From the NCBI GenBank assembly GCA_013334325.1, contig JAAXXT010000023.1, forward strand, positions 1-36,312: a stretch of 36,312 bases of DNA, written 5' to 3'. The first letter of the stretch is position 1, and every line of letters starts with the position of its first letter. Positions 1,149 through 21,086 of the stretch are shown piece after piece. Below the pieces are notes generated by a model. It was not told where the DNA came from. It saw only the letters and a list, made by a program, of their open reading frames with translations, and ran no database searches. The translations under genes were made by a program, and so were the position numbers. The stretch comes from Erysipelotrichaceae bacterium. Lineage in GTDB: Bacteria; Bacillota_I; Bacilli_A; Erysipelotrichales; Erysipelotrichaceae.

Positions 1149-3380
1149 ATGAAAAGAATTGGGATATGTTTAGTTGTATTATTGACTTTATTGCTTAATT
1201 TAAAAGGTGTAGGGTTAAGAGTGGTGGGGTATGGTGAAGGACAAGAAGGAACGCCTGATAATCCGTATGTGATCACGACACCTCAAGAATTACAGGACAT
1301 GAATTTAGATTTGGATGCATGTTATGTCTTAGGAAATGATTTGGATATGACGGATTTTTCATGGGAACACATTGGTGAATATGGTGATCCGTTTGTTGGA
1401 GAGCTTAATGGAGCTGGTTACGAAATCACCAATTTAACTTTACCGATCTATGTAACAAACATATTCGAAGAGAATGTTTTCGCTGCTGGGATGTTTGGGG
1501 CTATTGGGCAAAATGCACGTCTATATAATTTCGGTTTACAATATACCATCAGTGCTTTAAATATTGAAACTGGTGATACAAGTATCATGGTTGGTGGATT
1601 ATCAACTTATGTGGAAGGGTATTATGACATCGATATCAACAATATTTGGGTCGATGGGGATATTGAATTGAGTACGACAAGTACCTTTAGATATACCTCT
1701 GTAGGTGGAATCTTTGGGGAAGTTTATCTGGTGGAACATCTAACTGCATTAAGTTTTACAGGATCTATCAAAGTTGACGCAGAAAATAGCGGGATGGGTG
1801 TTGGTGGTATCGTAGGTTATGGGGAAGACTTTAGTATTAATGATTCCCGCGTTTTTGATGCTACCATTGAAACTGGAGCCAGTATTGATGAATCTGGCGT
1901 AGCTGGAATGATCGGGTGGGCAGAATACTATGATAGCTATCTCTCGGATTCAGATGTAATATTTAGAAATTCCGTTGTTGGTACGACGGTTACAAGTGGA
2001 AACTATGTTCATGCTGGTGGCTTAGTGGGTATTATCATCGATGATGATGATAATGATCTATATGCTACTCGTAATTATGTAGAAGACGTCATCGTTATTG
2101 GAGGTCGTGGCGTAGGGGGCTTCGTTGGATACTCTTACTATATGGATTACATCCGTAATGAGATCAAAGGTGTTGACGTTAAAATTTGCGATGATTTCTC
2201 ACAAGAATTTGGGGATGGTTATCTAGGTGTAGGTGGTTTTGTTGGGTATAGTCTTGCTGACTACATTCGTCAATTGGTGATCTCTGAAACCAGAGTGGGA
2301 TTAGGAGGCAGTGTAAATAGAGTTGGTGGTATTGCAGGGACATCAGAAGATGGATCCTATAGATACATAGATTTCAGTGGTGAAGTCAAATCTACCGGAG
2401 ATAGAGTAGGAGGAGTTAATGGACTCTCTCTCAATACTGATATTTATTACGCATTTGTAAATGCTGTCATTGAAGGTGATTCATATGTAGGAGGCATTAT
2501 TGGCCAATCTAATGGTTGGGATTTCCTAAGTTCAGATTCGTTTGTTGGGACCTTGACTGGTTATATGTATGTAGGTGGTTTGGTTGGAGAAAAAGAAGGC
2601 GATATTCTAGAAATCCACAGTTCTTATGCGAGAGGAACCTTTACAGCGGAGCGAGTTGTTGGGGGTCTCATAGGTTTATCTCTAGGAGAAGTTTTGATCG
2701 TACAATCATATTTTGCTGGAACGCTTGATAAACAAGACAGTGTTCCTGCTGGTGGGTTTACCCCAAGTGGATCCTTCCAGACTTTGATCGATCCGATCAA
2801 CTGTTCCAATGTCGAAGTTAGCTTGGTAAATGTTTACTTTGATAATACACTCTATACAGGTTCTTCTTTATTTCCTGATACTGGATATGCAACTATTAAT
2901 TTCAAAGATGTAACCAGTGATGTAGCGGGAAGTCTTGGTACTGATCTAGGCTTTGATGGTGACTATGAATTCTTCTTATTCAGTGGGTTAAATGATGGAT
3001 ACTTCTCATTGTGGGGAGATCGTAACTATATCTTCTTTATCTCAGAAGAAGAAAAAATTCAAATGCAACTGACTTTTGGGAGAATACTAATGGAAGGTAC
3101 CGATGAGTTTTATAACCCCAATGTGAAAGAATATATTTATTGGGAATATAGGATTCTTCCAGTAGTTATTGAAAGAACTGGTTTTGTGCTCAAGGGATGG
3201 TCTACGGATGCCCTGGGTGAAGACATGATTGATGAAGATACATATTACTTCGAAGACAACACAATGCTTTATGCTCAATGGACAGAATCATTACCTGATA
3301 CTGGGGTTGCGTCCAAATCAGGCTTGTCGCTTCTAATTTTAGCCCTATTGGGTTTATTGATAAGTAAGAAAAAAGACTAA
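1149..3380 (+). CDS. Sortase-anchored surface protein with GLUG-type repeats and an InlB-like B-repeat
   Basis: Predicted cell-wall-linked surface protein of 743 residues. The N-terminus is a signal peptide (Lys-Arg then a Val/Leu-rich core, about residues 1-25). The C-terminus is a sorting signal: LPDTG at 715-719, a hydrophobic stretch and the tail SKKKD. Between them lie at least ten spaced copies of a V-G-G-(L/I/F)-(V/I)-G motif, the hallmark of GLUG repeats in adhesin-like and protease-associated surface proteins; these probably form a beta-solenoid. Residues about 640-712 end in LYAQW after GFVLKGWST, matching the Listeria-Bacteroides (InlB B) repeat. No catalytic domain is visible, so an adhesion or matrix role is inferred. 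It is transcribed alone, between its own promoter and a strong terminator. Sortase is not in the window. Confidence 0.85.
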   Translation: MKRIGICLVVLLTLLLNLKGVGLRVVGYGEGQEGTPDNPYVITTPQELQDMNLDLDACYVLGNDLDMTDFSWEHIGEYGDPFVGELNGAGYEITNLTLPIYVTNIFEENVFAAGMFGAIGQNARLYNFGLQYTISALNIETGDTSIMVGGLSTYVEGYYDIDINNIWVDGDIELSTTSTFRYTSVGGIFGEVYLVEHLTALSFTGSIKVDAENSGMGVGGIVGYGEDFSINDSRVFDATIETGASIDESGVAGMIGWAEYYDSYLSDSDVIFRNSVVGTTVTSGNYVHAGGLVGIIIDDDDNDLYATRNYVEDVIVIGGRGVGGFVGYSYYMDYIRNEIKGVDVKICDDFSQEFGDGYLGVGGFVGYSLADYIRQLVISETRVGLGGSVNRVGGIAGTSEDGSYRYIDFSGEVKSTGDRVGGVNGLSLNTDIYYAFVNAVIEGDSYVGGIIGQSNGWDFLSSDSFVGTLTGYMYVGGLVGEKEGDILEIHSSYARGTFTAERVVGGLIGLSLGEVLIVQSYFAGTLDKQDSVPAGGFTPSGSFQTLIDPINCSNVEVSLVNVYFDNTLYTGSSLFPDTGYATINFKDVTSDVAGSLGTDLGFDGDYEFFLFSGLNDGYFSLWGDRNYIFFISEEEKIQMQLTFGRILMEGTDEFYNPNVKEYIYWEYRILPVVIERTGFVLKGWSTDALGEDMIDEDTYYFEDNTMLYAQWTESLPDTGVASKSGLSLLILALLGLLISKKKD

Positions 3381-3524: not shown

Positions 3525-4448
3525 ATGAACAGAATTCCAGTCATTTTGGATGTCGATACAGGTTTAGATGATGCCTTAGCTTTGCTTCTAGTCTCAGATC
3601 TAGCTCAACTACAGCTTATGGGATTAGCCTGTGTAAATGGGAATGCCTCTGTAGAAGACACCTATCGTAATACACGATTTATCGCTAAGCTTTTGAATAT
3701 AAAGGTTCCTGTATCAAAAGGTGCTGCCTATCCGATGATCAATAAGATACTTCACGCGAAAGAAGCTCATGGATCGTTTGGTTTAGGTAATCTAAAAGTA
3801 GAGATGGATGCAGAAAAACATATCTTACCTGCTTCTCAAATGTATATTAAATTATTAACGGAGACTACCGAACCTATTACGATCATCGCCACAGGTCCTT
3901 TGACCAATCTCGCTCATTTGATCGTCAATCATCCTGAGTTAAAACCTAAGATCAAAATGATCAGTTTTATGGGAGGATCTACAACTCAAGGTAATGTGAC
4001 CCCTTATGCGGAATTCAACGCACACGGTGATCCTGAAGCACTCAGTGTGGTCTTGAAGTCAGGGATAGCTTTGATGATGGCAGGACTAAACATCACCAAT
4101 GATTTAAGGATCAAACCTGAAGCAGTTACTAAGATGGTAAAGGATCCTAGTGATACTCAAAAGATCTTCATCGACTTTATAGATTTCTATGCGAATTCTG
4201 CGTTTTATCGTCATGAGAATAGAGGGGCAGCCCTTCATGATTCAACGGCAGTTGCGGCAGTTGCTTTTCCTGAAGCTTTTGAGAAAAGCATGAAGTCGAT
4301 CACCGTGGATGTCTCTAAGGATGCGCGAAGAGGAGAAACCAGAGAAGAAGGCGATTCCAACAATGTCTTGGTCTTGACATCTGTAGATCTGAAGTTTATG
4401 GTGAAATTAACAGTTGAAAGTATCCATCACTTAAGGAGAACTGAATGA
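3525..4448 (+). CDS. Inosine/uridine-preferring nucleoside hydrolase family
   Basis: Hydrolyses the N-glycosidic bond of ribonucleosides to free base and ribose. The product is 307 aa, typical for the family. The N-terminal calcium-binding motif DVDTGLDDA (residues 9-17) carries the signature aspartates, EFNAHGDPEA supplies the central Asn/Asp pair, and ALHDSTA contains the C-terminal His-Asp. I chose ATG 3525 rather than an upstream in-frame TTG at 3510 because GAAGGAGG (3512-3519) is spaced for the ATG. The stop overlaps the ribokinase start by ATGA, so the two are translationally coupled: hydrolase releases ribose, kinase traps it as ribose-5-phosphate. Base specificity cannot be read from the sequence. 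Confidence 0.92.
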   Translation: MNRIPVILDVDTGLDDALALLLVSDLAQLQLMGLACVNGNASVEDTYRNTRFIAKLLNIKVPVSKGAAYPMINKILHAKEAHGSFGLGNLKVEMDAEKHILPASQMYIKLLTETTEPITIIATGPLTNLAHLIVNHPELKPKIKMISFMGGSTTQGNVTPYAEFNAHGDPEALSVVLKSGIALMMAGLNITNDLRIKPEAVTKMVKDPSDTQKIFIDFIDFYANSAFYRHENRGAALHDSTAVAAVAFPEAFEKSMKSITVDVSKDARRGETREEGDSNNVLVLTSVDLKFMVKLTVESIHHLRRTE

Positions 4449-5371
4449 GAAAAATAGTTGTTATTGGATCAGTAAACATAGACATCGTCTTTCATGTGTC
4501 CTACTTCGTTAAACCTAAAGAAACCATTTCCTCTGAATCTATGGATCGTTTTCTAGGAGGCAAGGGTCTTAATCAAGCCATTGCCTTAAGTAAGGCCTAT
4601 CCTGAAGTTAAGCTCTTCGCCAATATCTCCTCAAAAGATACTTCTCTTAAAGAAGAGATCAAAGCGTTTGGGGTAGATACATCGATGATTGAAAGTCTTG
4701 ATGGGGAACCAGGGACAGCGTTTATCCAAGTGGATCCTAGTGGAGAAAACTGTATCATTTTAAATAAAGGGGTCAATCATCAGTTTACGAAAGAACGTAT
4801 CAGTTCAGTGATCTCATCTCTTCATGAAGGAGATCTTATCGTTCTTCAAAATGAGATCAATGAGCTAGAGTTCATCATCGAAAGCGCTAAATCTAAAGGT
4901 CTTAAGATTGCCTTTAATCCATCACCTTTTGATTCTAAGATCTTAGATCTACCTCTAGAAGAAGTAGACTATTTGATTTTTAATGAAGTAGAAGGAAAGA
5001 TGTTGAGCCATTTCTCAGAAGCAGACAAGATCTTAAAGACCCTTCACAATCGATATCCTAATACGACTCTAGTGTTGACCTTAGGCTCATTAGGGGTCAT
5101 GGCTCAACAAGCCAATATGACTTATGAGATGAGTGGATTAAAAGTAGAAGCTGTCGATACTACCGCAGCAGGAGATGCCTTTACAGGGTACTTCTTAGCG
5201 GGAGTTCAAAAAGGACTAAGTGTTGCGGAAGCTTTAGAGATGGCCAATGTGGCTGGAGCTTTGACTGTAACTAAGCGTGGGGCTTCTTCATCTATCCCAA
5301 CGCTTCAAGAAGTGTTTGATGGGGTCATTACCTTTAAAAATTCTTCTCAAAAAATCAAACAAGCGCTGTGA
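4445..5371 (+). CDS. rbsK: PfkB-family sugar kinase, probable ribokinase
   Basis: Phosphorylates a pentose, most likely ribose, using ATP. The 308-residue protein has PfkB signature 1 (GGKGLNQA near residue 38) and signature 2 (DTTAAGDAFTG), whose aspartate is the catalytic base. It opens with IGSVNIDIV, typical of ribokinase. It overlaps the nucleoside hydrolase by 4 bp, which supports ribose as substrate over other PfkB substrates. No ribose transporter is linked, so the supply is probably intracellular nucleoside breakdown. Its stop codon lies in the loop of a hairpin that probably terminates the operon. Confidence 0.88.
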   Translation: MRKIVVIGSVNIDIVFHVSYFVKPKETISSESMDRFLGGKGLNQAIALSKAYPEVKLFANISSKDTSLKEEIKAFGVDTSMIESLDGEPGTAFIQVDPSGENCIILNKGVNHQFTKERISSVISSLHEGDLIVLQNEINELEFIIESAKSKGLKIAFNPSPFDSKILDLPLEEVDYLIFNEVEGKMLSHFSEADKILKTLHNRYPNTTLVLTLGSLGVMAQQANMTYEMSGLKVEAVDTTAAGDAFTGYFLAGVQKGLSVAEALEMANVAGALTVTKRGASSSIPTLQEVFDGVITFKNSSQKIKQAL

Positions 5372-5387
5372 TCAGCGCTTGAATTTT
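5361..5387 (+). terminator. Terminator hairpin spanning the ribokinase stop codon
   Basis: Perfect 8-bp stem AAGCGCTG (5361-5368) / CAGCGCTT (5373-5380) with loop TGAT containing the TGA stop. It is followed by GAATTTTAT, a short T-run, so efficiency may be moderate. Confidence 0.65.
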
Positions 5388-5406
5388 ATAAAAGATGTGC
5401 TACAAT
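5379..5406 (+). promoter_or_regulatory. Promoter of htpG (extended -10)
   Basis: -35 TTGAAT (5379-5384), 16-bp spacer and -10 TACAAT (5401-5406) preceded by TGC, an extended -10. The start point would fall at the left edge of the CIRCE operator. Confidence 0.75.
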
Positions 5407-5409
5407 TAA

Positions 5410-5436
5410 TTAGCACTCACAGTGGTAAAGTGCTAA
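5410..5436 (+). promoter_or_regulatory. CIRCE operator (HrcA site) upstream of htpG
   Basis: TTAGCACTC (5410-5418), a 9-bp spacer and AAGTGCTAA (5428-5436). The CIRCE consensus is TTAGCACTC-N9-GAGTGCTAA, so this matches at 17 of 18 arm positions with exact spacing. It sits over the predicted transcription start, so HrcA would repress by blocking initiation. Confidence 0.93.
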
Positions 5437-5447
5437 AAGGAGAACTC

Positions 5448-7340
5448 ATGGCCCAAAAGAAACAGTATAAAGCAGAAACAAAGCGACTGCTGGATCTCAT
5501 GATCCATTCGATTTACACGCATAAAGAAATATTCCTTAGAGAATTGATTTCTAATGCTTCTGATGCCTTAGATAAGATCTATCATGCATCCTTACATAAC
5601 GAAGTAGAAATCGATCGTACTAAACTAGAAATTAGAATCACCGTTGATGAAAAGGCAAGAACCTTGACCATCACCGATAATGGGATCGGTATGACCGCAT
5701 CTGAGATCGAAGATAATCTAGGTGTGATTGCGAAGAGTGGATCCTTTACCTTTAAGAAAGGTTTAAAGGAGGAAGATAAACAAGATGATATCGATATTAT
5801 TGGTCAGTTTGGGGTAGGATTCTATTCTGCCTTTATGGTAGCTGAAAAAGTTGAAGTCTATTCTCAAAGTGCTAAAGGCGAAGATTCTGTTCGTTTTGAA
5901 TCTGAAGGAGAAGATGGGTATAAGATCGAGACTGTTGAGAAACGTCCGATTGGGACTACCATCGTTTTACATTTAAAAGCAGATGAGGAAGACGAAAACT
6001 ATAGCCTTTATTTAGAAAACTACGAAATCAAAAACCTCATCAAGAAATACTCAGACTATATTCGCTATCCAATCAAAATGAATGAAGAACAAAGCGACTA
6101 TGACGAGAAAGGTGAAGTCAAAGAAACCAAGATCGTAGAAGTCACTTTGAATTCAATGATTCCTTTATGGAAACGTAATAAGAGCGAACTTAAAGATGAA
6201 GACTACAATAGTTTCTATCAAGATAAGTTCAATGATTTCCAAGCCCCTTCAAAAGTCATCCATACCAATCTAGAAGGCGCTCTAAGTTTTGATGCCTTAT
6301 TGTTTGTGCCTTCTCATGTGCCTCCTGCTTTCTACACCCAAGATTATCAAGCAGGTCTACAACTCTATAGTCGAGGCGTCTTTATTCTAGATCACGCGAA
6401 AGATCTTCTACCGGATGCGTTTAGATTCGTACGTGGTTTGGTGGATTCCCCAGACTTATCACTTAATATTTCCCGAGAAATGCTTCAGCATGATCGTCAG
6501 TTGAAAGCCATCGCATCTCGCTTAGAAAAGAAAATCAAAGGCGAATTGTTGGGGATGCTAAAGACGGATCGCGAGAAGTATGAAGCTTTCTATAAAAACT
6601 TTGGTCTACAGATCAAATACGGAGCTTACGCTCAATATGGAGCCAATAAAGAACTCTTAGAAGATTTGATTTTATTTGGATCCTCAAAAGAACTAAAAAT
6701 GGTTTCACTAGAAGAATATGTAGAACGTATGAAAGAAGACCAGAAAGAAATTTTCTATGTATCAGGAGAAAGCTTGGCGAAATGTGATGCCTTACCTCAA
6801 ACTGAATGGGTCAAAGAAAAAGGCTATGAGATCTTATATCTAACCGATGATGTGGATGAATTTGTCCTACAAGCCTTTGGGACCTATAAAGAAAAAGCCT
6901 TCAAAGCCATTAATCAAGGTGATCTTGATTTAGGGACAGAAGAAGAAAAACAAGCTTTAAAAGATAAAGGAGAAGCCAATAAAGACTTACTTGAATCTTT
7001 AAAAGAAGCTTTAAAAGATCAAGTCAGTGATGTGAGACTGAGTGGTCGTTTAAAGAGCCATCCTGTATGTTTGGTTTCTGATGAAGGTCTAAGCTTTGAG
7101 ATGGAGAAGGTCTTGGCTCAAATGCCTGATGGGGCTCCTAATATGAAAGCCAAACGTATCTTAGAACTCAACTCTGAGCATCCTCTGATCGAAGCCTTAA
7201 GTAAAGTATCTCAAGATAAGGTAAAAGATTATGCGGAACTCTTATACAGTCAAGCTCTATTGATTGAAGGCTTTACTTTAGAAGATCCTGTGAAGTTCTC
7301 TAATACCTTAGCCCAATTGATGATCGATGCGTCTAAATAA
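5448..7340 (+). CDS. htpG: HtpG, bacterial Hsp90 chaperone
   Basis: ATP-dependent cytosolic chaperone of 630 aa, the usual HtpG length. The N-terminal GHKL ATPase domain shows ELISNASDAL (Mg/ATP-binding Glu and Asn), TDNGIGM and GQFGVGFYSAFMVA (ATP lid). The middle domain contains YSRGVFILD and the conserved DLSLNISREMLQ segment with the catalytic-loop Arg. The C-terminal dimerisation region is complete. An open frame extends 171 bp further upstream, but ATG 5448 has the AAAAGGAGAA Shine-Dalgarno and lies just after the CIRCE site, which fixes the start. The gene is transcribed alone and should be induced by heat through HrcA release. Confidence 0.98.
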   Translation: MAQKKQYKAETKRLLDLMIHSIYTHKEIFLRELISNASDALDKIYHASLHNEVEIDRTKLEIRITVDEKARTLTITDNGIGMTASEIEDNLGVIAKSGSFTFKKGLKEEDKQDDIDIIGQFGVGFYSAFMVAEKVEVYSQSAKGEDSVRFESEGEDGYKIETVEKRPIGTTIVLHLKADEEDENYSLYLENYEIKNLIKKYSDYIRYPIKMNEEQSDYDEKGEVKETKIVEVTLNSMIPLWKRNKSELKDEDYNSFYQDKFNDFQAPSKVIHTNLEGALSFDALLFVPSHVPPAFYTQDYQAGLQLYSRGVFILDHAKDLLPDAFRFVRGLVDSPDLSLNISREMLQHDRQLKAIASRLEKKIKGELLGMLKTDREKYEAFYKNFGLQIKYGAYAQYGANKELLEDLILFGSSKELKMVSLEEYVERMKEDQKEIFYVSGESLAKCDALPQTEWVKEKGYEILYLTDDVDEFVLQAFGTYKEKAFKAINQGDLDLGTEEEKQALKDKGEANKDLLESLKEALKDQVSDVRLSGRLKSHPVCLVSDEGLSFEMEKVLAQMPDGAPNMKAKRILELNSEHPLIEALSKVSQDKVKDYAELLYSQALLIEGFTLEDPVKFSNTLAQLMIDASK

Positions 7341-7365
7341 AAGTCGAAGAAATTCGACTTTTTTC
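7341..7365 (+). terminator. Intrinsic terminator of htpG
   Basis: 8-bp stem AAGTCGAA/TTCGACTT with a GAAA tetraloop, then TTTTC. It begins directly after the htpG stop. Confidence 0.9.
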
Positions 7366-7408
7366 TTACTTTAAAGAACGAATTAAAAAAATAAGAAATT
7401 ATTTTTGG

Positions 7409-7437
7409 CTTAATATTAACTTAATATACACTATGCT
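7409..7437 (+). promoter_or_regulatory. 11-bp direct-repeat operator and promoter, copy 1
   Basis: CTTAATAT at 7409-7416 is repeated at 7420-7427, exactly 11 bp apart. A weak -10 TATGCT lies at 7432-7437. Repeats with 11-bp period overlapping the -35 region are typical of tandem OmpR/PhoB-type regulator sites. The same arrangement recurs upstream of the paralogue at 8206, and an OmpR-type regulator is encoded directly downstream of that. Confidence 0.65.
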
Positions 7438-7463
7438 AATATGGTTGCAGAAGAGGTAACAGA

Positions 7464-8045
7464 ATGAAGAAAATTACTGTATTACTTATGAGTTTAATGT
7501 TTATAGCTTTTATGGGATTAAGCGTTAGTGCTACATCAGATGAACCTACACCATTGGATCCGATCTTGGTTGATCCTAAACCAGAAGAACCAATCGTTGT
7601 GGATCCTATCATCGTTATCGATGATGGTGAAGTCATTAATCCTTGTGGAGAAAACATCGAAGTATGTATCGCTACCACAGGTGAAGGCTTCTCTGAAGGT
7701 TCTGTAGGAACAGGCGAAGAAGTTAAAGTTTGTTCAATCGATGAGAATGGTGTTGAATCTTGTGTTATCGAAATCGTTCCGTTAGATGGTCAACCTATCG
7801 ACAATACGATCGATGAGACTCCAGTGGATTGCGAAAAAGATCCTACCATTTGTCAGAGAACTGATGATGGGATTGAAACCTTAATGCCTACTGATGGAAA
7901 ATATGAAGATGGGATCTACTATATGACAGGCGATAAGAACTTAGACGCCAAAGACAATAGTATGGTTACAGTATCTGTGGTTGGATCTACTTTAGGTCTC
8001 ATCATATTAGGTTTAGCGATCAATCGCAAAGTAAGAAAAAACTAA
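7464..8045 (+). CDS. Secreted, C-terminally anchored protein with six conserved cysteines (paralogue 1)
   Basis: Unknown function, 193 aa. It has a signal peptide (MKK then a hydrophobic core ending in VSA, about residues 1-23), an acidic Pro/Asp-rich linker, an ectodomain, one C-terminal membrane segment and a basic RKVRKN tail. The ectodomain has three cysteine pairs (NPCGENIEVC, VCSIDENGVESC, DCEKDPTICQ), which could form three disulfides outside the cell. It is a close paralogue of the protein at 8206-8709. The Pro-rich linker (PLDPILVDPKPEEPIVV) and a segment near residue 140 are longer here. A YMTG sequence before the membrane segment faintly recalls a sorting signal but is not LPxTG. 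It has its own promoter and terminator, so is separate from the downstream operon. A sensor-accessory or surface role is inferred. Confidence 0.75.
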   Translation: MKKITVLLMSLMFIAFMGLSVSATSDEPTPLDPILVDPKPEEPIVVDPIIVIDDGEVINPCGENIEVCIATTGEGFSEGSVGTGEEVKVCSIDENGVESCVIEIVPLDGQPIDNTIDETPVDCEKDPTICQRTDDGIETLMPTDGKYEDGIYYMTGDKNLDAKDNSMVTVSVVGSTLGLIILGLAINRKVRKN

Positions 8046-8088
8046 AAAGATTTGAGATGAATTGCTTCATCCTAATGGACAAATCTTT
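8046..8088 (+). other. Nested hairpin in the 3' UTR of paralogue 1
   Basis: AAAGATTTG (8046-8054) pairs with CAAATCTTT (8080-8088). Inside, GATGAA (8056-8061) pairs with TTCATC (8066-8071) around a TTGC loop. There is no T-run after it; the real terminator follows at 8095. Possible mRNA-stabilising or processing element. Confidence 0.4.
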
Positions 8089-8094
8089 AGTGGA

Positions 8095-8125
8095 TAAAAG
8101 CCGATTTCCCTCGGCTTTTATTTTT
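8095..8125 (+). terminator. Intrinsic terminator after paralogue 1
   Basis: Perfect 10-bp stem TAAAAGCCGA/TCGGCTTTTA with loop TTTCCC, followed by TTTTT. It separates paralogue 1 from the next transcription unit. Confidence 0.88.
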
Positions 8126-8149
8126 AGTTCATAATCAAATCTTATTTCG

Positions 8150-8178
8150 CTTAATATTAACTTAATATACGCTATGAT
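8150..8178 (+). promoter_or_regulatory. 11-bp direct-repeat operator and promoter, copy 2
   Basis: CTTAATAT at 8150-8157 and again at 8161-8168, with a -10 TATGAT at 8173-8178. The repeat-to--10 offset (23 bp) equals that of copy 1. The likely regulator is the response regulator encoded in the same operon, giving autoregulation; this is inference. Confidence 0.68.
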
Positions 8179-8205
8179 ATAGTTGAACCATAAGAGGAAA
8201 CATCT

Positions 8206-8709
8206 ATGAAGAAATTAACTGTATTACTTATGAGTTTCGTATTTATTGCCTTTATGGGATTAAGTGTAAGTGCGACATCTGATGAGCCTACACCAGTCGA
8301 TCCTACAGTCACTGTCGATGATGGGACAGTTGTTAATCCTTGTGGAGAAAATCCAGAAATTTGTATGACAACCACAGGAGTTGATGAAGGATCTGTAGGA
8401 ACAGGCGAAGAAGTTAAAGTTTGCACAGTGGATAAAGATGGCGTAGAAACATGCGTTATCGAAGTCGTATTGCCTGATGGAACACCTGTTGATAACACGA
8501 TCGATGAAACACCAGTGGATTGCGAAAAAGATCCTACCATTTGTCAGAGAACAGATGATGGCATTAATGAAGAAGACATCTATACTACGACTGGCGTCAG
8601 AGACTTAGCTGATAAAGGTAAGAGTATGGTTACACTATCTGTATTAGCATCAACCTTAGGTTTGATCATCGTTAGTTTAGCGCTTAATCGCAAACTAAAT
8701 AAGAAATAG
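8206..8709 (+). CDS. Secreted, C-terminally anchored protein with six conserved cysteines (paralogue 2)
   Basis: Unknown function, 167 aa, clearly a tandem duplicate of the 7464-8045 product. The signal peptide is almost identical (MKK...SVSATSDEPTP). The three cysteine pairs are kept: NPCGENPEIC, VCTVDKDGVETC and DCEKDPTICQ. A C-terminal membrane segment is followed by NRKLNKK. The acidic ectodomain would lie outside the membrane. The response-regulator gene starts 7 bp after its stop, so this is the first gene of a three-gene operon with a two-component system. Such an arrangement suggests it is a partner or target of that kinase. No domain family is recognised. Confidence 0.78.
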   Translation: MKKLTVLLMSFVFIAFMGLSVSATSDEPTPVDPTVTVDDGTVVNPCGENPEICMTTTGVDEGSVGTGEEVKVCTVDKDGVETCVIEVVLPDGTPVDNTIDETPVDCEKDPTICQRTDDGINEEDIYTTTGVRDLADKGKSMVTLSVLASTLGLIIVSLALNRKLNKK

Positions 8710-8716
8710 GAAAACA

Positions 8717-9388
8717 ATGAGAATATTACTGGTCGAAGATGAATCTCAACTTCTAAATGCCTATGTGAAGGGTTTAAAACAGGATGGGTATGCGATCGAT
8801 ACTGCAGGAGATGGCGCATCAGCCGTTGAACTGTGTGAGATCAATACCTATGACTTGGTTGTGTTAGATATCAACTTACCTAAACTCAATGGCATCGAAG
8901 TGCTTAAGCAAGTACGCACTTTAAACAAGTCCGTCAAGATCATCATCGTCAGTGCCAATCGTTCTATTGAACAACGTATCGAAGGGCTCGATCTAGGAGC
9001 CAATGATTACCTAACCAAGCCCTTCGATTTCCAAGAATTAAGAGCTCGAATAAGAGCTTTATTGAGAAGAGACTTTATTTCTCAACCCAAAGTATTAACG
9101 ATCAATGATTTCAATATCGATCTTAATCTACATCAGATTACCTATCAAGGTAAGATGATACTTCTTACTTTAAAAGAATATACGATCCTTACTTATTTGA
9201 TCCAAAACAGAGAACGTATCATCAGTTCAGAAGAGTTATTGGAGAAGTGTTGGAATGATGAGGCCGATCCCTTCAGTGAAGCGATGAGGGTCCACATCTA
9301 TGCCTTACGTAAGAAAATTCAAGAAGCGACCCAACGCGATGACGTGATCCAAACTGTCAAAGGCGTAGGATATCGATTCAACCCCTAA
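8717..9388 (+). CDS. OmpR/PhoB-family response regulator
   Basis: Two-component transcription factor of 223 aa. The receiver domain (about 1-115) has the acidic pair E7/D8, phosphoacceptor D51 (VVLDINLP), S79 in the switch position and K101 (LTKPFD). The C-terminal winged helix (about 125-223) ends with the family signature VKGVGYRF. This class usually binds DNA as a dimer on direct repeats about 11 bp apart, exactly what lies upstream of both neighbouring paralogues. ATG 8717 follows TAGGAAAAC. The kinase starts 2 bp after its stop. Confidence 0.95.
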   Translation: MRILLVEDESQLLNAYVKGLKQDGYAIDTAGDGASAVELCEINTYDLVVLDINLPKLNGIEVLKQVRTLNKSVKIIIVSANRSIEQRIEGLDLGANDYLTKPFDFQELRARIRALLRRDFISQPKVLTINDFNIDLNLHQITYQGKMILLTLKEYTILTYLIQNRERIISSEELLEKCWNDEADPFSEAMRVHIYALRKKIQEATQRDDVIQTVKGVGYRFNP

Positions 9389-9390
9389 AC

Positions 9391-10521
9391 ATGAAAAAAA
9401 CCATTCAAGCTAAAACCTTTATCGCATTAACACTCGCCATCTTTATGTGTGGCGTTTTCTACTTGATGAGTGTCGATGCAGCAACCAAGTCATTGGTTGG
9501 GCTATATAAAGCGGAAGTAGCACGAGCGGAACAAAATACCATCGTAGAAAACGATGTCGATTATTCAACAGTCAAAGGGGATACCCTTGGGACAACAGCC
9601 GGAGAAATATTGATTACGGTAGACGTTGAATCTTTTAAAACCAACTTGATCATGAATACAGCCATCATTACCGTTGTGGCGATGTTGATTCTTATTGGAT
9701 CAGCATATTTGATCGTTGCCTATTTTAATCGTCCGATCAAACATCTCACTAAACAAGTCAAAGCAGGCAAACAAGCTGCCATCAACACGACAAGTGATGA
9801 AGTCCAGACCTTATCTCAATCCTACAATGAAATGTTGAGTAAGTTGGATGGAGCACTGAGTGCACAGAAACATTTCAATGTCTCTGTTGCTCATGAACTA
9901 AAAACACCATTGGCAGTTATGAAAGCCCATATCGATGTCTTGAATAATCAAGAAGCAAAAGATATCAAAGATTATCAAGAAACCATAGCCATTATTCATC
10001 AAAGTCTCAACAAGATGAATGCGGTCATAGAAACATTATTAGACAGTAGCGTCTTATCCACAGCTTCCATCGATGACAACATCTGTCTCGATGAGATCCT
10101 CTCTGATGTGATCACCGACATCAAACCTTACGCAACTCAACATCAAGTAAGTCTTGAACTTGAAAGTGTCGATTGTCCTAGTGGAAAAGGCAATCAAGTA
10201 TTACTATATAGAGCCTTTTATAACCTTATCGAAAATGCGATCAAATACAATAACGCTGGTGGAAAAGTCCGCGTTAAATTAGAGTGTTTGAAACATACAT
10301 CAAAGATCACCATCGCAGATACAGGCTGTGGTATCGCTGAAAAAGACATTGACCATATCTTTGAACCATTCTACAGAGTAGAAGGTTCAGATAAGGAAGG
10401 TCTAGGTTTAGGCTTATCCTTGGTTCTTAATATTATCCAACGTCATTCAGGTTTGATCACTGCGATCAGTAAACCTCAAGAAGGCACAAGCTTCGAAATC
10501 GAACTTCCTCACTTAATCTAA
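9391..10521 (+). CDS. Membrane sensor histidine kinase
   Basis: Partner kinase, 376 aa. Two membrane segments (about 10-28 and 89-112) enclose an extracytoplasmic loop of about 60 residues with no recognisable sensor fold. HAMP follows (about 110-160). The H-box is VAHELKTP with phosphoacceptor H168. The catalytic domain has the N-box (YNLIENAIKYN), G1 (ADTGCGI), F-box (FEPFYR) and G2 (GLGLGLSL). The short loop suggests that signal detection may depend on a membrane or extracellular partner, and the cysteine-rich protein encoded first in the operon is an obvious candidate. That link is inference from gene order. Confidence 0.95.
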   Translation: MKKTIQAKTFIALTLAIFMCGVFYLMSVDAATKSLVGLYKAEVARAEQNTIVENDVDYSTVKGDTLGTTAGEILITVDVESFKTNLIMNTAIITVVAMLILIGSAYLIVAYFNRPIKHLTKQVKAGKQAAINTTSDEVQTLSQSYNEMLSKLDGALSAQKHFNVSVAHELKTPLAVMKAHIDVLNNQEAKDIKDYQETIAIIHQSLNKMNAVIETLLDSSVLSTASIDDNICLDEILSDVITDIKPYATQHQVSLELESVDCPSGKGNQVLLYRAFYNLIENAIKYNNAGGKVRVKLECLKHTSKITIADTGCGIAEKDIDHIFEPFYRVEGSDKEGLGLGLSLVLNIIQRHSGLITAISKPQEGTSFEIELPHLI

Positions 10522-12196: not shown

Positions 12197-12230
12197 GATG
12201 CTAACGATTGTTATCTATAGGGGGAATACC

Positions 12231-14123
12231 ATGAACACAAAAATAATGAAAGCTTTCCTCGTCTTGCTTCTTCTTGGGACGAGTTTATCAGCATGTACTA
12301 AAAAGGATCCTATCGATGAAGAACCTATCGATGAAGAACCAGTTGTGGTGGCGCTTGATCAAAAGTATCAAGGTGAAATCGGAAATACAGGCGGGAATCT
12401 ATTTAATGGGGGTTTAATCGTTGATAAAGGTGAGTGGCTTTATCTTTCAGAGACCCTCAATTTTAATCGAATCGTCAAGATGAAAGCGGATGGATCAGAA
12501 AGAACACTTCTCACAAATACACAAAATAATTTCCATCTGAATGTAGTTGGAGATTGGATCATTTACCTAGAGTCATCTAGTGTTTGGCTTGAGTCTGGGG
12601 TCATTATGAAAATGAAAACGGATGGGACTTCAAAAACAGCACTTACTGATTTCATTGTGTCTAAATTGTTTGTAAAAGGAAACTACATCTACTATTTAAA
12701 GGAAAGTGATTCCAAGATCTATAGAACTCAACTAGACGGGAAAGATACCGTTTTGCTGGTTAATGATGAAGTGTATGGGATGGGCTTAAGCGGAGAATGG
12801 GTTGTATACACAGATAGGACTTTGGGAAAACTTAGAAAAATAAGATTGGATGGGAAGTATGGGGCTGTCTTAGGAGAAGATCCTTGTGGAGGAAGATATT
12901 TCACAGATGATCTAGCGACCTATTGTGCAACGAATGGGGGGATTGGTGTAACCATCACAAAAACGGATGGTTCAGGCACGAACACTCTTGAGCTTATGAC
13001 AGGGATATTTACCTTCAATCTAGTTGATGATCATTTCTATTTTGGTGGGGTTGGTGGTTTGTATATGAGTGATCTCAATGGAGAGTCGTTGACACAAATA
13101 TCATCGACAAAATTCGCGAATTCACTCAATAGTGGAGGCAATTGGTTATATTACGAAAATGAATATCCTTGGTATGATGTCAATCGAGTTTCGCTTGATG
13201 GAAAAACGAAAGAGAGCCTCATGAGTTTGGTCATGGTTGCTCCAACAAGCATTGCGCCTAAACCTAACGACACTTTAACTCATGATAGCTCTTGGTTACT
13301 TCTGATAGATGGTTGGGCATATCAAAATATATACGCTGGTTATTTGACAAAGACCAAAGGAGATAAAGTTGAATCTATTTATCCTTATGAAACAAGTGAA
13401 TATATCCGAGTTGGAGATTGGATCTATATCCTAGAATGGGATACAGTTTATACGAAAACCCTCTCCAGAATAAAAATAGATGGGACTGAGCTTGGGTTCT
13501 TTGATATAACTAATATTGGTAATCTAGCGATCAAAGATGACTGGATCTACTATACTTCAAGTGGCTTATTTTATCGGATGAAAACGAATGGAAGTCAAAA
13601 AACCAAGTTGACTACAGACGTAGTAAGTTCTTTTGATATCCATCAAGATTCAATCTATTATGTAACCTTAGCAAAAGAAAATGGAGATGAAGATATCCAT
13701 AAAGCCAATTTAGATGGTTCTTCCAATCAAATAATCTTAAGTGGTTCAGTATGGAATATTGATCTAGAAGGAGATGCCTTATTCTTCTCTAGAACGGAGA
13801 ACGAGAAAACATCTATCTATAGAACAGCTCTAGATGGATCCAATCTAAGCTTACTCATCGAAGAAGCATTTTATATACGCTTGGTTCATTTGGATTGGGT
13901 GTATTGGACAAAGGTAGTAGATAGTCATTGTATCATTGTGAGAACTAAGACAGATGGCTCTGTAAGTGAAGAGATCGCTACCTTAAACAGCTCAGATACT
14001 CAAATTGAACTTATCGATGAGAAAATCTACTATACAGACTATATAGATCAAGTTGAAGGCATTCATAAGATGGATCTAGATGGGAAGAATCAAAGCCTAT
14101 TTCTAGTTTCTCAAGTAAGATAA
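12231..14123 (+). CDS. Lipoprotein with DUF5050-like beta-propeller repeats
   Basis: Predicted extracellular lipoprotein of 630 aa. A basic N-terminus and Leu-rich core end in the lipobox LSAC, with lipidated cysteine 22. A 15-bp tandem repeat (12309-12338) encodes a doubled PIDEE linker. The rest is built from about a dozen copies of a unit that reads W(I/V)YY, then R/K-(M/I)-K-x-DG, then a Leu-rich end, as in DUF5050 six-bladed-propeller-like proteins. The frame opens 60 bp earlier, but ATG 12231 is preceded by AGGGGGAA and followed directly by the signal peptide. Function unknown; ligand binding or signalling at the surface is plausible. It is transcribed alone. Confidence 0.85.
   Translation: MNTKIMKAFLVLLLLGTSLSACTKKDPIDEEPIDEEPVVVALDQKYQGEIGNTGGNLFNGGLIVDKGEWLYLSETLNFNRIVKMKADGSERTLLTNTQNNFHLNVVGDWIIYLESSSVWLESGVIMKMKTDGTSKTALTDFIVSKLFVKGNYIYYLKESDSKIYRTQLDGKDTVLLVNDEVYGMGLSGEWVVYTDRTLGKLRKIRLDGKYGAVLGEDPCGGRYFTDDLATYCATNGGIGVTITKTDGSGTNTLELMTGIFTFNLVDDHFYFGGVGGLYMSDLNGESLTQISSTKFANSLNSGGNWLYYENEYPWYDVNRVSLDGKTKESLMSLVMVAPTSIAPKPNDTLTHDSSWLLLIDGWAYQNIYAGYLTKTKGDKVESIYPYETSEYIRVGDWIYILEWDTVYTKTLSRIKIDGTELGFFDITNIGNLAIKDDWIYYTSSGLFYRMKTNGSQKTKLTTDVVSSFDIHQDSIYYVTLAKENGDEDIHKANLDGSSNQIILSGSVWNIDLEGDALFFSRTENEKTSIYRTALDGSNLSLLIEEAFYIRLVHLDWVYWTKVVDSHCIIVRTKTDGSVSEEIATLNSSDTQIELIDEKIYYTDYIDQVEGIHKMDLDGKNQSLFLVSQVR
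12309..12338 (+). repeat. 15-bp tandem repeat in the lipoprotein linker
   Basis: CCTATCGATGAAGAA occurs twice in direct succession (12309-12323, 12324-12338), in frame, encoding PIDEE twice. Copy number could vary by slippage without breaking the frame. Confidence 0.85.
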
Positions 14124-18644: not shown

Positions 18645-19746
18645 ATGGAATTTTATGAATTAAAACAAGGAGTCATCAGTACCAGGGACAAACTCAAGCA
18701 GTTGGGTGACTCACTTTGACTTCGCTAGTTATGATGCAAGAATAAAAGAAATCGATGAGATGATGATGACAGACTCCTTCTACAATGATCGTAGAGGAGC
18801 CCAAGTCTTGATCTCAGAGAGAAATAGTCTTAGTGAATTGGTAAAGTCTTATCGATTCTTAGTAGAATCTACTGCTGAACTAGAAAGCACCATAGATGTC
18901 TTTAAGGATGCTTTTGATGATGATATGAAAGCTTTAGTCGAAGAAGAATATAAAACTACGCAAGCAGCTTTTGATGCCTTTGAGATCAAGCTACTATTGT
19001 CTCATCCTTATGATCACTCCAATGCGATCTTGGAACTACATCCAGGGGCAGGTGGAACTGAATCCCAAGATTGGGCTGAAATCCTATATCGGATGTATAC
19101 ACGTTTTGCGGAAAAACGAGGATGGAAAGTAAAGGTCCTCGATTATCAAGAAGGTGAAGAAGCAGGCATCAAATCCGTTTCTTTCTTAATAGAAGGTGAT
19201 ATGGCTTATGGTTATTTAAAAGCTGAACGAGGAGTTCATCGTTTAGTACGTGTCTCCCCATTTGATTCCTCAGGAAGAAGACATACTTCGTTTTGTTCAT
19301 TGGATGTCATGCCTGAATTCAATGAAGAAATAGAGATCGTTATCGATCCTAAAGACATCGAACTTGAAGTTCGTCATGCCTCAGGAGCAGGTGGACAAAA
19401 CGTTAATAAAGTTTCATCTGCGGTTAGATTGAAACATTTACCTACAGGTATCGTCGTCAACTGTCAAACTGAGCGTTCTCAACTCAATAATCGTGAAACT
19501 GCGATGAATATGTTGAAATCAAAGCTTTATCAGTTAGAGATCGAAGCTCAAGAATCTAAAGTTAAAAACATCAAGGGTGAACAAAAAGCCATTGAATGGG
19601 GATCTCAGATCAGATCCTATACCTTTATGCCTTATACCTTGGTCAAAGATCATCGTACAGGTTATGAAGAAGGCAACCTTCAAAAAGTAATGGATGGAAG
19701 CCTTGATGAGTTTATTTACGCCTATTTAAAGTCATTGATCTCATAA
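18645..19746 (+). CDS. prfB: Peptide chain release factor 2 with programmed +1 frameshift
   Basis: RF2 terminates translation at UGA and UAA. Translation starts at ATG 18645 and runs 24 codons to CTT (18714-18716), then meets TGA (18717-18719). A +1 shift lets reading resume at GAC (18718), and the merged protein is about 366 aa, the normal RF2 length. The slip site CTT-TGA-C is the canonical one, and GGGTGA just upstream can act as the stimulatory Shine-Dalgarno-like element. The body has the GGQ peptidyl-hydrolysis motif ([10 protein letters not shown]) and the stop-recognising [13 protein letters not shown] segment containing the SPF tripeptide. Without the shift the only start is a GTG at 18706 lacking the N-terminal helix. 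Production is autoregulated by RF2 level. Confidence 0.96.
18714..18720 (+). promoter_or_regulatory. RF2 +1 frameshift site
   Basis: CTTTGAC: the P-site CTT slips to TTT when the TGA is decoded slowly because RF2 is scarce. The GGGTGA stretch (18704-18709 region) is the probable anti-SD contact. Confidence 0.93.
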
Positions 19747-19753
19747 AATAGAT

Positions 19754-19786
19754 AAGGAACTCTTCTTAAGGAAGAGTTCCTTTTTT
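19754..19786 (+). terminator. Intrinsic terminator of secA-prfB
   Basis: 12-bp stem AAGGAACTCTTC/GAAGAGTTCCTT with loop TTAAG and a T-run. Confidence 0.92.
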
Positions 19787-19871: not shown

Positions 19872-19915
19872 TGAAAGACCTTTCATCAAAAAATGCACAC
19901 TATAAGTGTCATTTT
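19872..19915. promoter_or_regulatory. Two inverted repeats upstream of the small-RNA promoter
   Basis: TGAAAG-AC-CTTTCA (19872-19885) is a perfect inverted repeat. ACACT-ATA-AGTGT (19897-19909) is another, flanked by AAAATG and CATTTT (19890-19915). They lie just upstream of the probable -35 and have no coding role, so they may be operators. The cognate regulators are unknown. Confidence 0.4.
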
Positions 19916-19917
19916 AC

Positions 19918-19945
19918 TATACATTTTAAAATAATCATTTATAAT
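19918..19945 (+). promoter_or_regulatory. Promoter of the candidate small RNA
   Basis: -35-like TATACA (19918-19923), 16-bp spacer and a perfect -10 TATAAT (19940-19945). Start is expected near 19951-19954. Confidence 0.55.
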
Positions 19946-19950
19946 ATTAA

Positions 19951-20050
19951 GTAGGAACGAAAGTTCCACCTTCAGTAAGATATCCCCCACCCATTTTTAA
20001 CTTACTGAGGGTATACCGGCTCTTCCCCCAATTTAGGCCGGTATTTTTTT
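19951..20050 (+). ncRNA. Candidate trans-acting small RNA with C-rich loops
   Basis: About 100 nt without a reading frame, between a TATAAT promoter and a terminator. Three stem-loops are visible. Hairpin 1 is GGAAC-GAAA-GTTCC (19954-19967). Hairpin 2 pairs CCTTCAGTAAG (19969-19979) with CTTACTGAGGG (20001-20011), 11 bp with one G-U, around a 21-nt loop containing CCCCCACCC. Hairpin 3 is the terminator with ATACCGGC/GCCGGTAT around a 16-nt loop containing TCTTCCCCC. Unpaired UCCC-type loops that pair with Shine-Dalgarno sequences are known from staphylococcal Rsa sRNAs and Bacillus RoxS. I do not recognise it as 6S, SRP, tmRNA or RNase P RNA. The last two bases overlap the convergent pepQ stop. 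Confidence 0.68.
20013..20050 (+). terminator. Terminator of the small RNA
   Basis: 8-bp stem ATACCGGC/GCCGGTAT with a 16-nt C-rich loop, then seven T. It has no T-run on the other strand, so it does not serve pepQ. Confidence 0.82.
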
Positions 20051-21086
20051 ATGGGATAATGATTTCTTGATCTTTAGGATAAGCATTTAAAACATCACAA
20101 CCATCTTTAGTCACCAAGACTAGATCTTCTATTCTTATTCCACCACTTCCAGGAAGATAGATCCCAGGTTCAATAGAAAAAATCATGCCTTCTCTACAGA
20201 TGATTTGAGAATCTGAGGAGACAGGATAGGGCTCATGAACGGAAGATCCTATCCCATGACCTGTTCTATGAATGAAGTATTGTCCATAGCCTGCTTCTTC
20301 TATAACGCTTCTAGCGGCTTTATCGATGTCGCTTAAGCTTACACCAGGTTTAACTTTCTTAATCGCAGCCATATTGGCCTTATAAACCGTCTCATAGACC
20401 TCTTTCATTGAGTTATGTCCAATAAAGAAAGTACGGGTCATATCAGAACAGTAGCCTTTGTATTTACATCCCATATCGACCACAATGGCTTCGTTGGCTT
20501 TAAGAGCTCGATCTGTAGGATTTGCGTGAGGATCAGAAGCGTGATCCCCAAACGCAATAATAGGTTTAAAACTGATCCCATCTGAACTTGTATTAAACAG
20601 CTCTACGATCTTAGATGCGACTTCGCTTTCTAAGACACCAACTCTTAATAGATCAGGTACCTTACTCATCACTTCATCGTTTAAACGACTGGCTTCTCTC
20701 ATAAAGTTGATCTCTTCATCATCTTTGATGGATCTAATCTGATCCATCGTCGTATCGATATGATAATCCGCTAAAGGTTTAAGTCTCATCAATTTTAGAA
20801 GGAAACCACTCGCTAGATTATGGTCTACTTTTAAAGTGTCCTCATCCCAAACCTTCGCAAGCATATGAATGGGATCTTCTTCATCACTAAATCTAATGAT
20901 CTTTATCTGATCATTCTCATAAGGGAAAAGCTTATTTAGAAAGAGCCTTACTTCATTGCGTTGAAGAAGTAGACCTAGAAATCTTTCACCTACCTCAAAA
21001 TGAGCTCCAATCAAATACTGGATCATTTTAGGATCAGAAACCAATACAGGGTGACGCGATAGCGTCAATGCGTGTGTGACTTTCAT
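20049..21086 (-). CDS. pepQ: Xaa-Pro peptidase, M24 family
   Basis: Metallopeptidase that cleaves Xaa-Pro bonds in peptides (prolidase or aminopeptidase P), 345 aa. The M24 pita-bread domain carries all five metal ligands: Asp in VVDMG, Asp in CSDMTRTF, His in TGHGIG, Glu in SIEPG and Glu in RIEDL. An N-terminal creatinase-like domain covers about the first 120 residues. The start is preceded by GAGGTGAAG on the minus strand. It is divergent from ppiB and convergent with the small RNA. Dipeptidase and aminopeptidase activities cannot be separated by sequence alone. Confidence 0.93.
   Translation of the reverse strand: MKVTHALTLSRHPVLVSDPKMIQYLIGAHFEVGERFLGLLLQRNEVRLFLNKLFPYENDQIKIIRFSDEEDPIHMLAKVWDEDTLKVDHNLASGFLLKLMRLKPLADYHIDTTMDQIRSIKDDEEINFMREASRLNDEVMSKVPDLLRVGVLESEVASKIVELFNTSSDGISFKPIIAFGDHASDPHANPTDRALKANEAIVVDMGCKYKGYCSDMTRTFFIGHNSMKEVYETVYKANMAAIKKVKPGVSLSDIDKAARSVIEEAGYGQYFIHRTGHGIGSSVHEPYPVSSDSQIICREGMIFSIEPGIYLPGSGGIRIEDLVLVTKDGCDVLNAYPKDQEIIIP

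Follow-up and report, generated by a model that had tools for sequence, protein, structure and literature searches.

Positions 19951–20050 of the DNA analysed here, a 36,312-nt stretch (the window) from the 1.95-Mb assembly of an Erysipelotrichaceae bacterium, very probably hold a genuine gene for a small RNA, to judge from comparison with related genomes, and its family, not yet described, sets constant loops on exchangeable scaffolds. Conservation, structure, covariation and loop invariance support this reading directly. We further consider it probable, though well short of certain, that the gene is independently transcribed and that its product acts in trans through C-rich loops that pair with G-rich sites, chiefly ribosome-binding sites. 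Transcription, mRNA pairing and repression are what we infer here, the pairing by analogy with LhrC, RoxS, B11/6C and sX13.

The RNA folds as three abutting hairpins with a minimum free energy of −35.9 kcal/mol (z −6.7 relative to dinucleotide shuffles, which averaged −17.7; none of 200 shuffles equalled it), as a first-pass annotation had proposed from the letters of the window, and folding confirmed both of the large loops (21 and 16 nt) that it had described as displaying CCCCC. The loop of hairpin 2 carries CCCCCACCC, and that of hairpin 3 carries UUCCCCC and is followed by U7. The TATAAT box and the T-run between which the annotation had placed the RNA were both recovered, and no + strand frame has a start codon inside it. 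By Pfam, the neighbouring genes encode release factor RF2 (PCRF, RF-1), an M24 peptidase and a cyclophilin; prfB lies upstream of the RNA, and pepQ lies on the opposite strand and ends in the T-run. The TATACA hexamer at 19918 and the TATAAT box together match 10 of 12 positions, with a spacer of 16; promoter matches of this kind are frequent by chance (5 found vs 6.1 expected), and the promoter call therefore rests on conservation in a congener (G002, an Erysipelotrichaceae MAG). The terminator scan left hairpin 3 unflagged because it permits loops of 3–8 nt only. As a separate observation (18645–18720), the coding region of prfB opens with ATG 18645 and meets an in-frame TGA at 18717; this codon lies within CTTTGAC, the classical site of programmed +1 frameshifting in RF2. 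The start of prfB was placed too late, at 18706, in the ORF lists.

Within the genus, G002 carries the window RNA at 97% identity, and 93 consecutive positions (19961 to 20053) are identical between the two genomes. The differences are confined to hairpin 1 and the positions just before it; the G002 hairpin preserves the stem and has TTAA as its tetraloop. The flanking DNA is far more diverged (69.5% identity in pepQ, 82% in prfB and 44% at pooled fourfold-degenerate sites), a contrast that points to strong purifying selection on the RNA. Recent transfer between the window species and G002 is a less likely account, but a conceivable one; the position of the RNA behind pepQ is retained in G002. 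The promoter and the block back to approximately 19880 are conserved there as well, and homology fades further upstream. About 6 kb of other genes lie between prfB and the RNA in G002; by names assigned by eye from sequence (L175, ~3900–9700), this interval encodes a GntP-like transporter, an acetyl-CoA acetyltransferase, a CoA-transferase-like protein and a LysR-type regulator, and the window has none of these in the corresponding place.

Features of the window RNA and of a candidate target site (positions are those of the window)
Feature	Position	Strand	Basis
Small RNA, ~100 nt	19951..20050	+	fold z −6.7; 97% identity in G002
Hairpin 1, GGAAC-GAAA-GTTCC (GGAAC-GAAA-GUUCC in RNA)	19954..19967	+	fold; stem kept in G002
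Hairpin 2: stem 12 bp, loop 21 nt at 19980–20000	19968..20012	+	fold
Loop A motif TCCCCCACCCAT	19983..19994	+	invariant, five genomes / four genera
Hairpin 3: stem 8 bp, loop 16 nt at 20021–20036; terminator stem	20013..20044	+	fold
Loop B motif TCTTCCCCCA	20021..20030	+	invariant, five genomes / four genera
Intrinsic-terminator T-run, overlapping pepQ stop codon of other strand	20044..20050	+	sequence
−10 box TATAAT	19940..19945	+	sequence, pattern scan, identical in G002
Conserved upstream region: TGCACACTATA at 19894–19904, −35-like TATACA at 19918–19923; possible regulator site	19880..19939	+	G002 conservation, −35 match
Candidate target site, not confirmed as target: GGGGGAA (12220–12226) + ATG 12231, DUF5050 lipoprotein gene	12220..12233	+	sequence

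Comparison of prfB-pepQ spaces across the genus, which the first-pass annotation had proposed as a check, gave a divided result. A further congener, G007 (prfB 78% identical), carries a different three-hairpin RNA in this space (z −7.7). Behind a TATAAT come GACAAG-UUUU-CUUGUC, a second hairpin in which 10 bp hold ACUUCCCCCCCCAAAAAUAUAAC, and a terminator hairpin; the stems are new, and the RNA displays a C8 loop. When the pattern TATAAT-N25..55-CCCCC-N35..65-TTTTT was applied genome-wide, this place was the sole match in G007, and in G000 (the window genome) and G002 the matches were the RNA and one other site each. In G004 and G005 the same space holds plain terminators, and the RNA is absent from this place; the G001 contig breaks inside prfB and thus falls outside the comparison. 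Two neighbouring genes may be recorded in passing. The gene right after the G007 RNA (L174 / L045), a possible target in the neighbourhood, has a ribosome-binding stretch, AAAGGGGGGCCTTATG, that is complementary to the C-run. In the G005 space (L046), the place that the RNA occupies in the window is taken by a short gene for a lipoprotein (MDKIVRSVLIGLLIIFSLSACTVKSS), whose ribosome-binding stretch reads GGGGGACC.

Outside the genus, the TATAAT-CCCCC-TTTTT pattern, applied across the family, pointed to G013. A pattern built from the loops only, TCCCCCACCC-N6..36-CTTCCCCC, gave exactly five matches in 316 genomes of the order, namely G000, G002, G013, G109 and G065, which represent four genera; its reversed control gave none in the same 316 genomes, and the chance expectation by composition is 0.01–0.2. 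No position of loop A (UCCCCCACCCAU) or loop B (UCUUCCCCCA) varies among the five. The RNAs of G013, G109 and G065 have a 13-bp closing stem, with a T-run at its end, around two hairpins, one bearing loop A and the other, the short AUCU-UCCCCC-AGAU, bearing loop B. An alignment of these three sequences has 92.6% of its cells paired, with six pairs altered on both sides (shuffled mean 2.0; as many in one of 500 shuffles) and no more than one such pair in the control with slid partners, and RNAalifold returned a nearly identical structure. In this comparison, small at three sequences, the loops stay constant while the stems covary. In all three, promoter-like sequences (TTGATT, 17 nt, TATATT or TATACT), identified by eye, end approximately 7 nt before the closing stem. 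The neighbouring genes in the three other genera are unrelated (a NERD nuclease; a MerR regulator and a lipase-like protein; a Fur-type regulator and rubrerythrin), and no pepQ-adjacent homolog was seen in other genera among the loci read. We place the window type and the three-way-junction type in one family because 22 loop positions agree between them and keep their order; convergence seems the less likely account. The five sequences thereby part function (the loops) from scaffold (the stems) through natural variation, a separation that eases the design of loop mutants and partner-capture experiments.

The first-pass annotation did not recognise the RNA as a known family, and the Rfam search that it had recommended (Rfam 15) agrees: in the whole window no family reached gathering score, and matches near the RNA up to E = 10 were at chance level and to other families. 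The reading as an unlisted small RNA also draws on the conservation in G002, the counterpart in G007 and the invariant loops and covarying stems in three genera. Model R1 was run against the 273 genomes of the family set and matched once in G000 and once in G002; a weak match in G175 (23.7 bits) lacks the C-rich loops. The remaining BLASTN matches are chance, the one in G001 being coding. No homolog was found in viral, phage and plasmid collections, where the single viral pattern match is unrelated. Of 37 pattern matches in a GTDB scan, only the G002 contig is the RNA, and a C8 candidate in G010 overlaps open frames and folds differently. Only two loops of 10–12 nt persist outside the genus, and BLAST and the covariance model recovered the congener alone; small-RNA families can evade alignment-based searches in this way. 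A small RNA of this kind in Erysipelotrichaceae was found neither in Rfam nor in the open literature, both searches being limited in reach.

Pairing of C-rich loops with G-rich ribosome-binding sites has been demonstrated in experiments on several RNAs (PMC8079631, PMC4409812, PMC10470900, PMC3771888), which makes the first-pass analogy to loops that bind Shine-Dalgarno regions a reasonable one. In Listeria, LhrC is induced by LisRK and carries UCCC motifs in loop A, in a single-stranded stretch and, in LhrC1-5, in the terminator loop, which pair with the AG-rich ribosome-binding sites of mainly surface-protein mRNAs (PMC8079631). The window RNA resembles it in length (~100 nt) and in placing UCCC both in the loop of a hairpin and in that of the terminator; unlike LhrC, it has hairpins 2 and 3 directly abutting, with no unpaired stretch and hence no UCCC between them, it is present in single copy rather than multiple copies (one R1 match each in G000 and G002), and its structure is distinct, with no Rfam match. 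RsaE/RoxS of Staphylococcus and Bacillus has several C-rich regions able to pair with Shine-Dalgarno sequences, a repeat (CCCCUUUGUU in RoxS), an upstream ResD/SrrA site and induction by nitric oxide (PMC4409812). It is likewise a Firmicute small RNA with several C-rich regions, and trans action is proposed for the window RNA too; the latter, however, lacks the CCCCUUUGUU repeat and any Rfam sequence or structure match, and its C-rich regions are placed in two large loops. Mycobacterial B11/6C has two unstructured loops with C-runs, either of which can act on G-tracts near ribosome-binding sites (PMC10470900); the window RNA shares the two C-run loops but differs in phylum (B11/6C is from Actinobacteria and has two hairpins), in the length of the runs (C5 vs C6) and in having no Rfam match. 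The sX13 RNA of Xanthomonas has three stable stems with 4C and 5C loops, does not need Hfq, and represses mRNAs with G-rich motifs near their starts (PMC3771888); compared by description, it shares the three stems and differs in phylum and in its three C-rich loops vs two. The tests made place the window RNA outside LhrC, RsaE/RoxS and B11/6C, although its mode of action is probably like theirs. As in these RNAs, the loops of the new family are held open and conserved; candidate G-rich sites exist, with no conserved target found.

In the mechanism we favour, the gene's own promoter and intrinsic terminator would yield a separate RNA of approximately 100 nt, in which the stems would act as a replaceable scaffold that keeps both C-rich loops open. 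Loops A and B would be the working parts. Their most likely partners are G-rich stretches, above all those of ribosome-binding sites, and the pairing would either prevent translation or leave the mRNA open to RNases. Counted against this account are the lack of a conserved target, the lack of a favoured gene class among those tested in G013, the invariance of ACCCAU, the absence of the RNA from the prfB-pepQ space in G004 and G005, and a covariation signal drawn from three sequences. The conservation of ACCCAU beyond the C-run exceeds what generic Shine-Dalgarno pairing would need, and suggests at least one more specific partner. It is tentatively conceivable that two short loops alone carry the function in this family, fixed by one specific partner, while the architecture is freely exchanged: one genus would use tandem hairpins, and three others a three-way junction whose closing stem is the terminator. 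A related proposal, that the loops bind one specific conserved partner (an RNA, or a protein for C-rich single strands) and that the RNA serves as a decoy or dedicated regulator, we regard as doubtful: the loops have remained constant over four genera despite rewritten stems, and no broad target class emerged, yet the known C-rich-loop RNAs act on many mRNAs, and no candidate partner is at hand.

Candidate targets were examined by searches and in samples drawn by a fixed rule (0.4 Mb each of G000 and G002, and 0.8 Mb of G013). The first-pass annotation had singled out the ribosome-binding stretch of the lipoprotein gene at 12231 as complementary to the loop of hairpin 3 over 7 nt, and the site is indeed complementary to UUCCCCC. 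The annotation's view of the RNA as unlisted, with C-rich sequence in two of its loops, has held up well; the lipoprotein as its target is not established and stands as a candidate only. GGGGGAW precedes ATG about 30 times per genome, 33 times in G000 and 30 times in G002 (9 and 10 in the reversed control), no orthologous genes with the motif in both genomes were found in the material compared, and in G005, a genus member without the RNA, GGGGG starts are no fewer than in others. We consider it unlikely that the RNA is an LhrC-like repressor of lipoprotein or surface-protein mRNAs acting through GGGGGA(A/T) sites such as that of gene 12231. Lipoproteins do account for 5 of the 23 GGGGGA(A/T) starts accepted by a simple gene caller in G000 and G002, vs 22 of 772 sampled genes (p = 7e-4, post hoc, the trend having been spotted before the test), and LhrC, with UCCC in loop A and the terminator loop, has mainly surface-protein targets (PMC8079631). 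In a prospective test on the 0.8 Mb of G013, where the loops are identical, however, lipoproteins paired no better than cytoplasmic proteins (p = 0.24), a GGGGG site was present in 0 of 19 lipoproteins, and no gene class tested showed stronger pairing with the loops; in unselected samples of G000 and G002, the lipoprotein difference was absent or lost after correction for Shine-Dalgarno strength. It is highly improbable that the element is a mere transcription terminator or 3′ untranslated region of prfB or pepQ: it does lie at the 3′ end of pepQ, whose stop codon (minus strand, 20049–20051) overlaps the T-run alone, but prfB has a terminator of its own at 19754–19782, the T-run serves the + strand only, which also folds better than its opposite (−35.9 vs −30.8), the promoter region is conserved in G002, and the same loops adjoin unrelated genes in other genera.

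The strongest start in G013, that of csoR, has a G-run that belongs to a palindrome resembling a CsoR operator and was thus not counted. At this locus (L294, 6220–6260), csoR is followed by a copper-type P-type ATPase gene, and the palindrome, CCACCACCGGTGGGGGG, overlaps the csoR ribosome-binding site and is probably the CsoR operator.

Further intergenic candidates running from promoter to T-run were seen in other genomes. In G075 (L168, ~1424–1526, minus strand), a single terminator hairpin has the loop AUUCCCCCACCAUAUAU, which is nearly loop A. The C-loop RNAs of G253 (L170, ~1463–1563, minus; z −5.0), in which a short tetraloop hairpin, a C-loop hairpin and a terminator follow one another in the same order as in the window RNA, and of G124 (L169, ~1430–1517, minus; z −4.1) are weaker cases, perhaps no more than analogous. 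Two other genera have a second candidate C-rich RNA, in G052 (L171, ~1481–1581, minus) and G066 (L172, ~1383–1490, plus), which consists of a 5′ hairpin, the identical single-stranded stretch TTTCTTTCCCCCGTTAA and a terminator. TTTCACA-like repeats approximately 20 nt apart lie upstream in both, and the G066 candidate lies immediately upstream of a two-component system operon.
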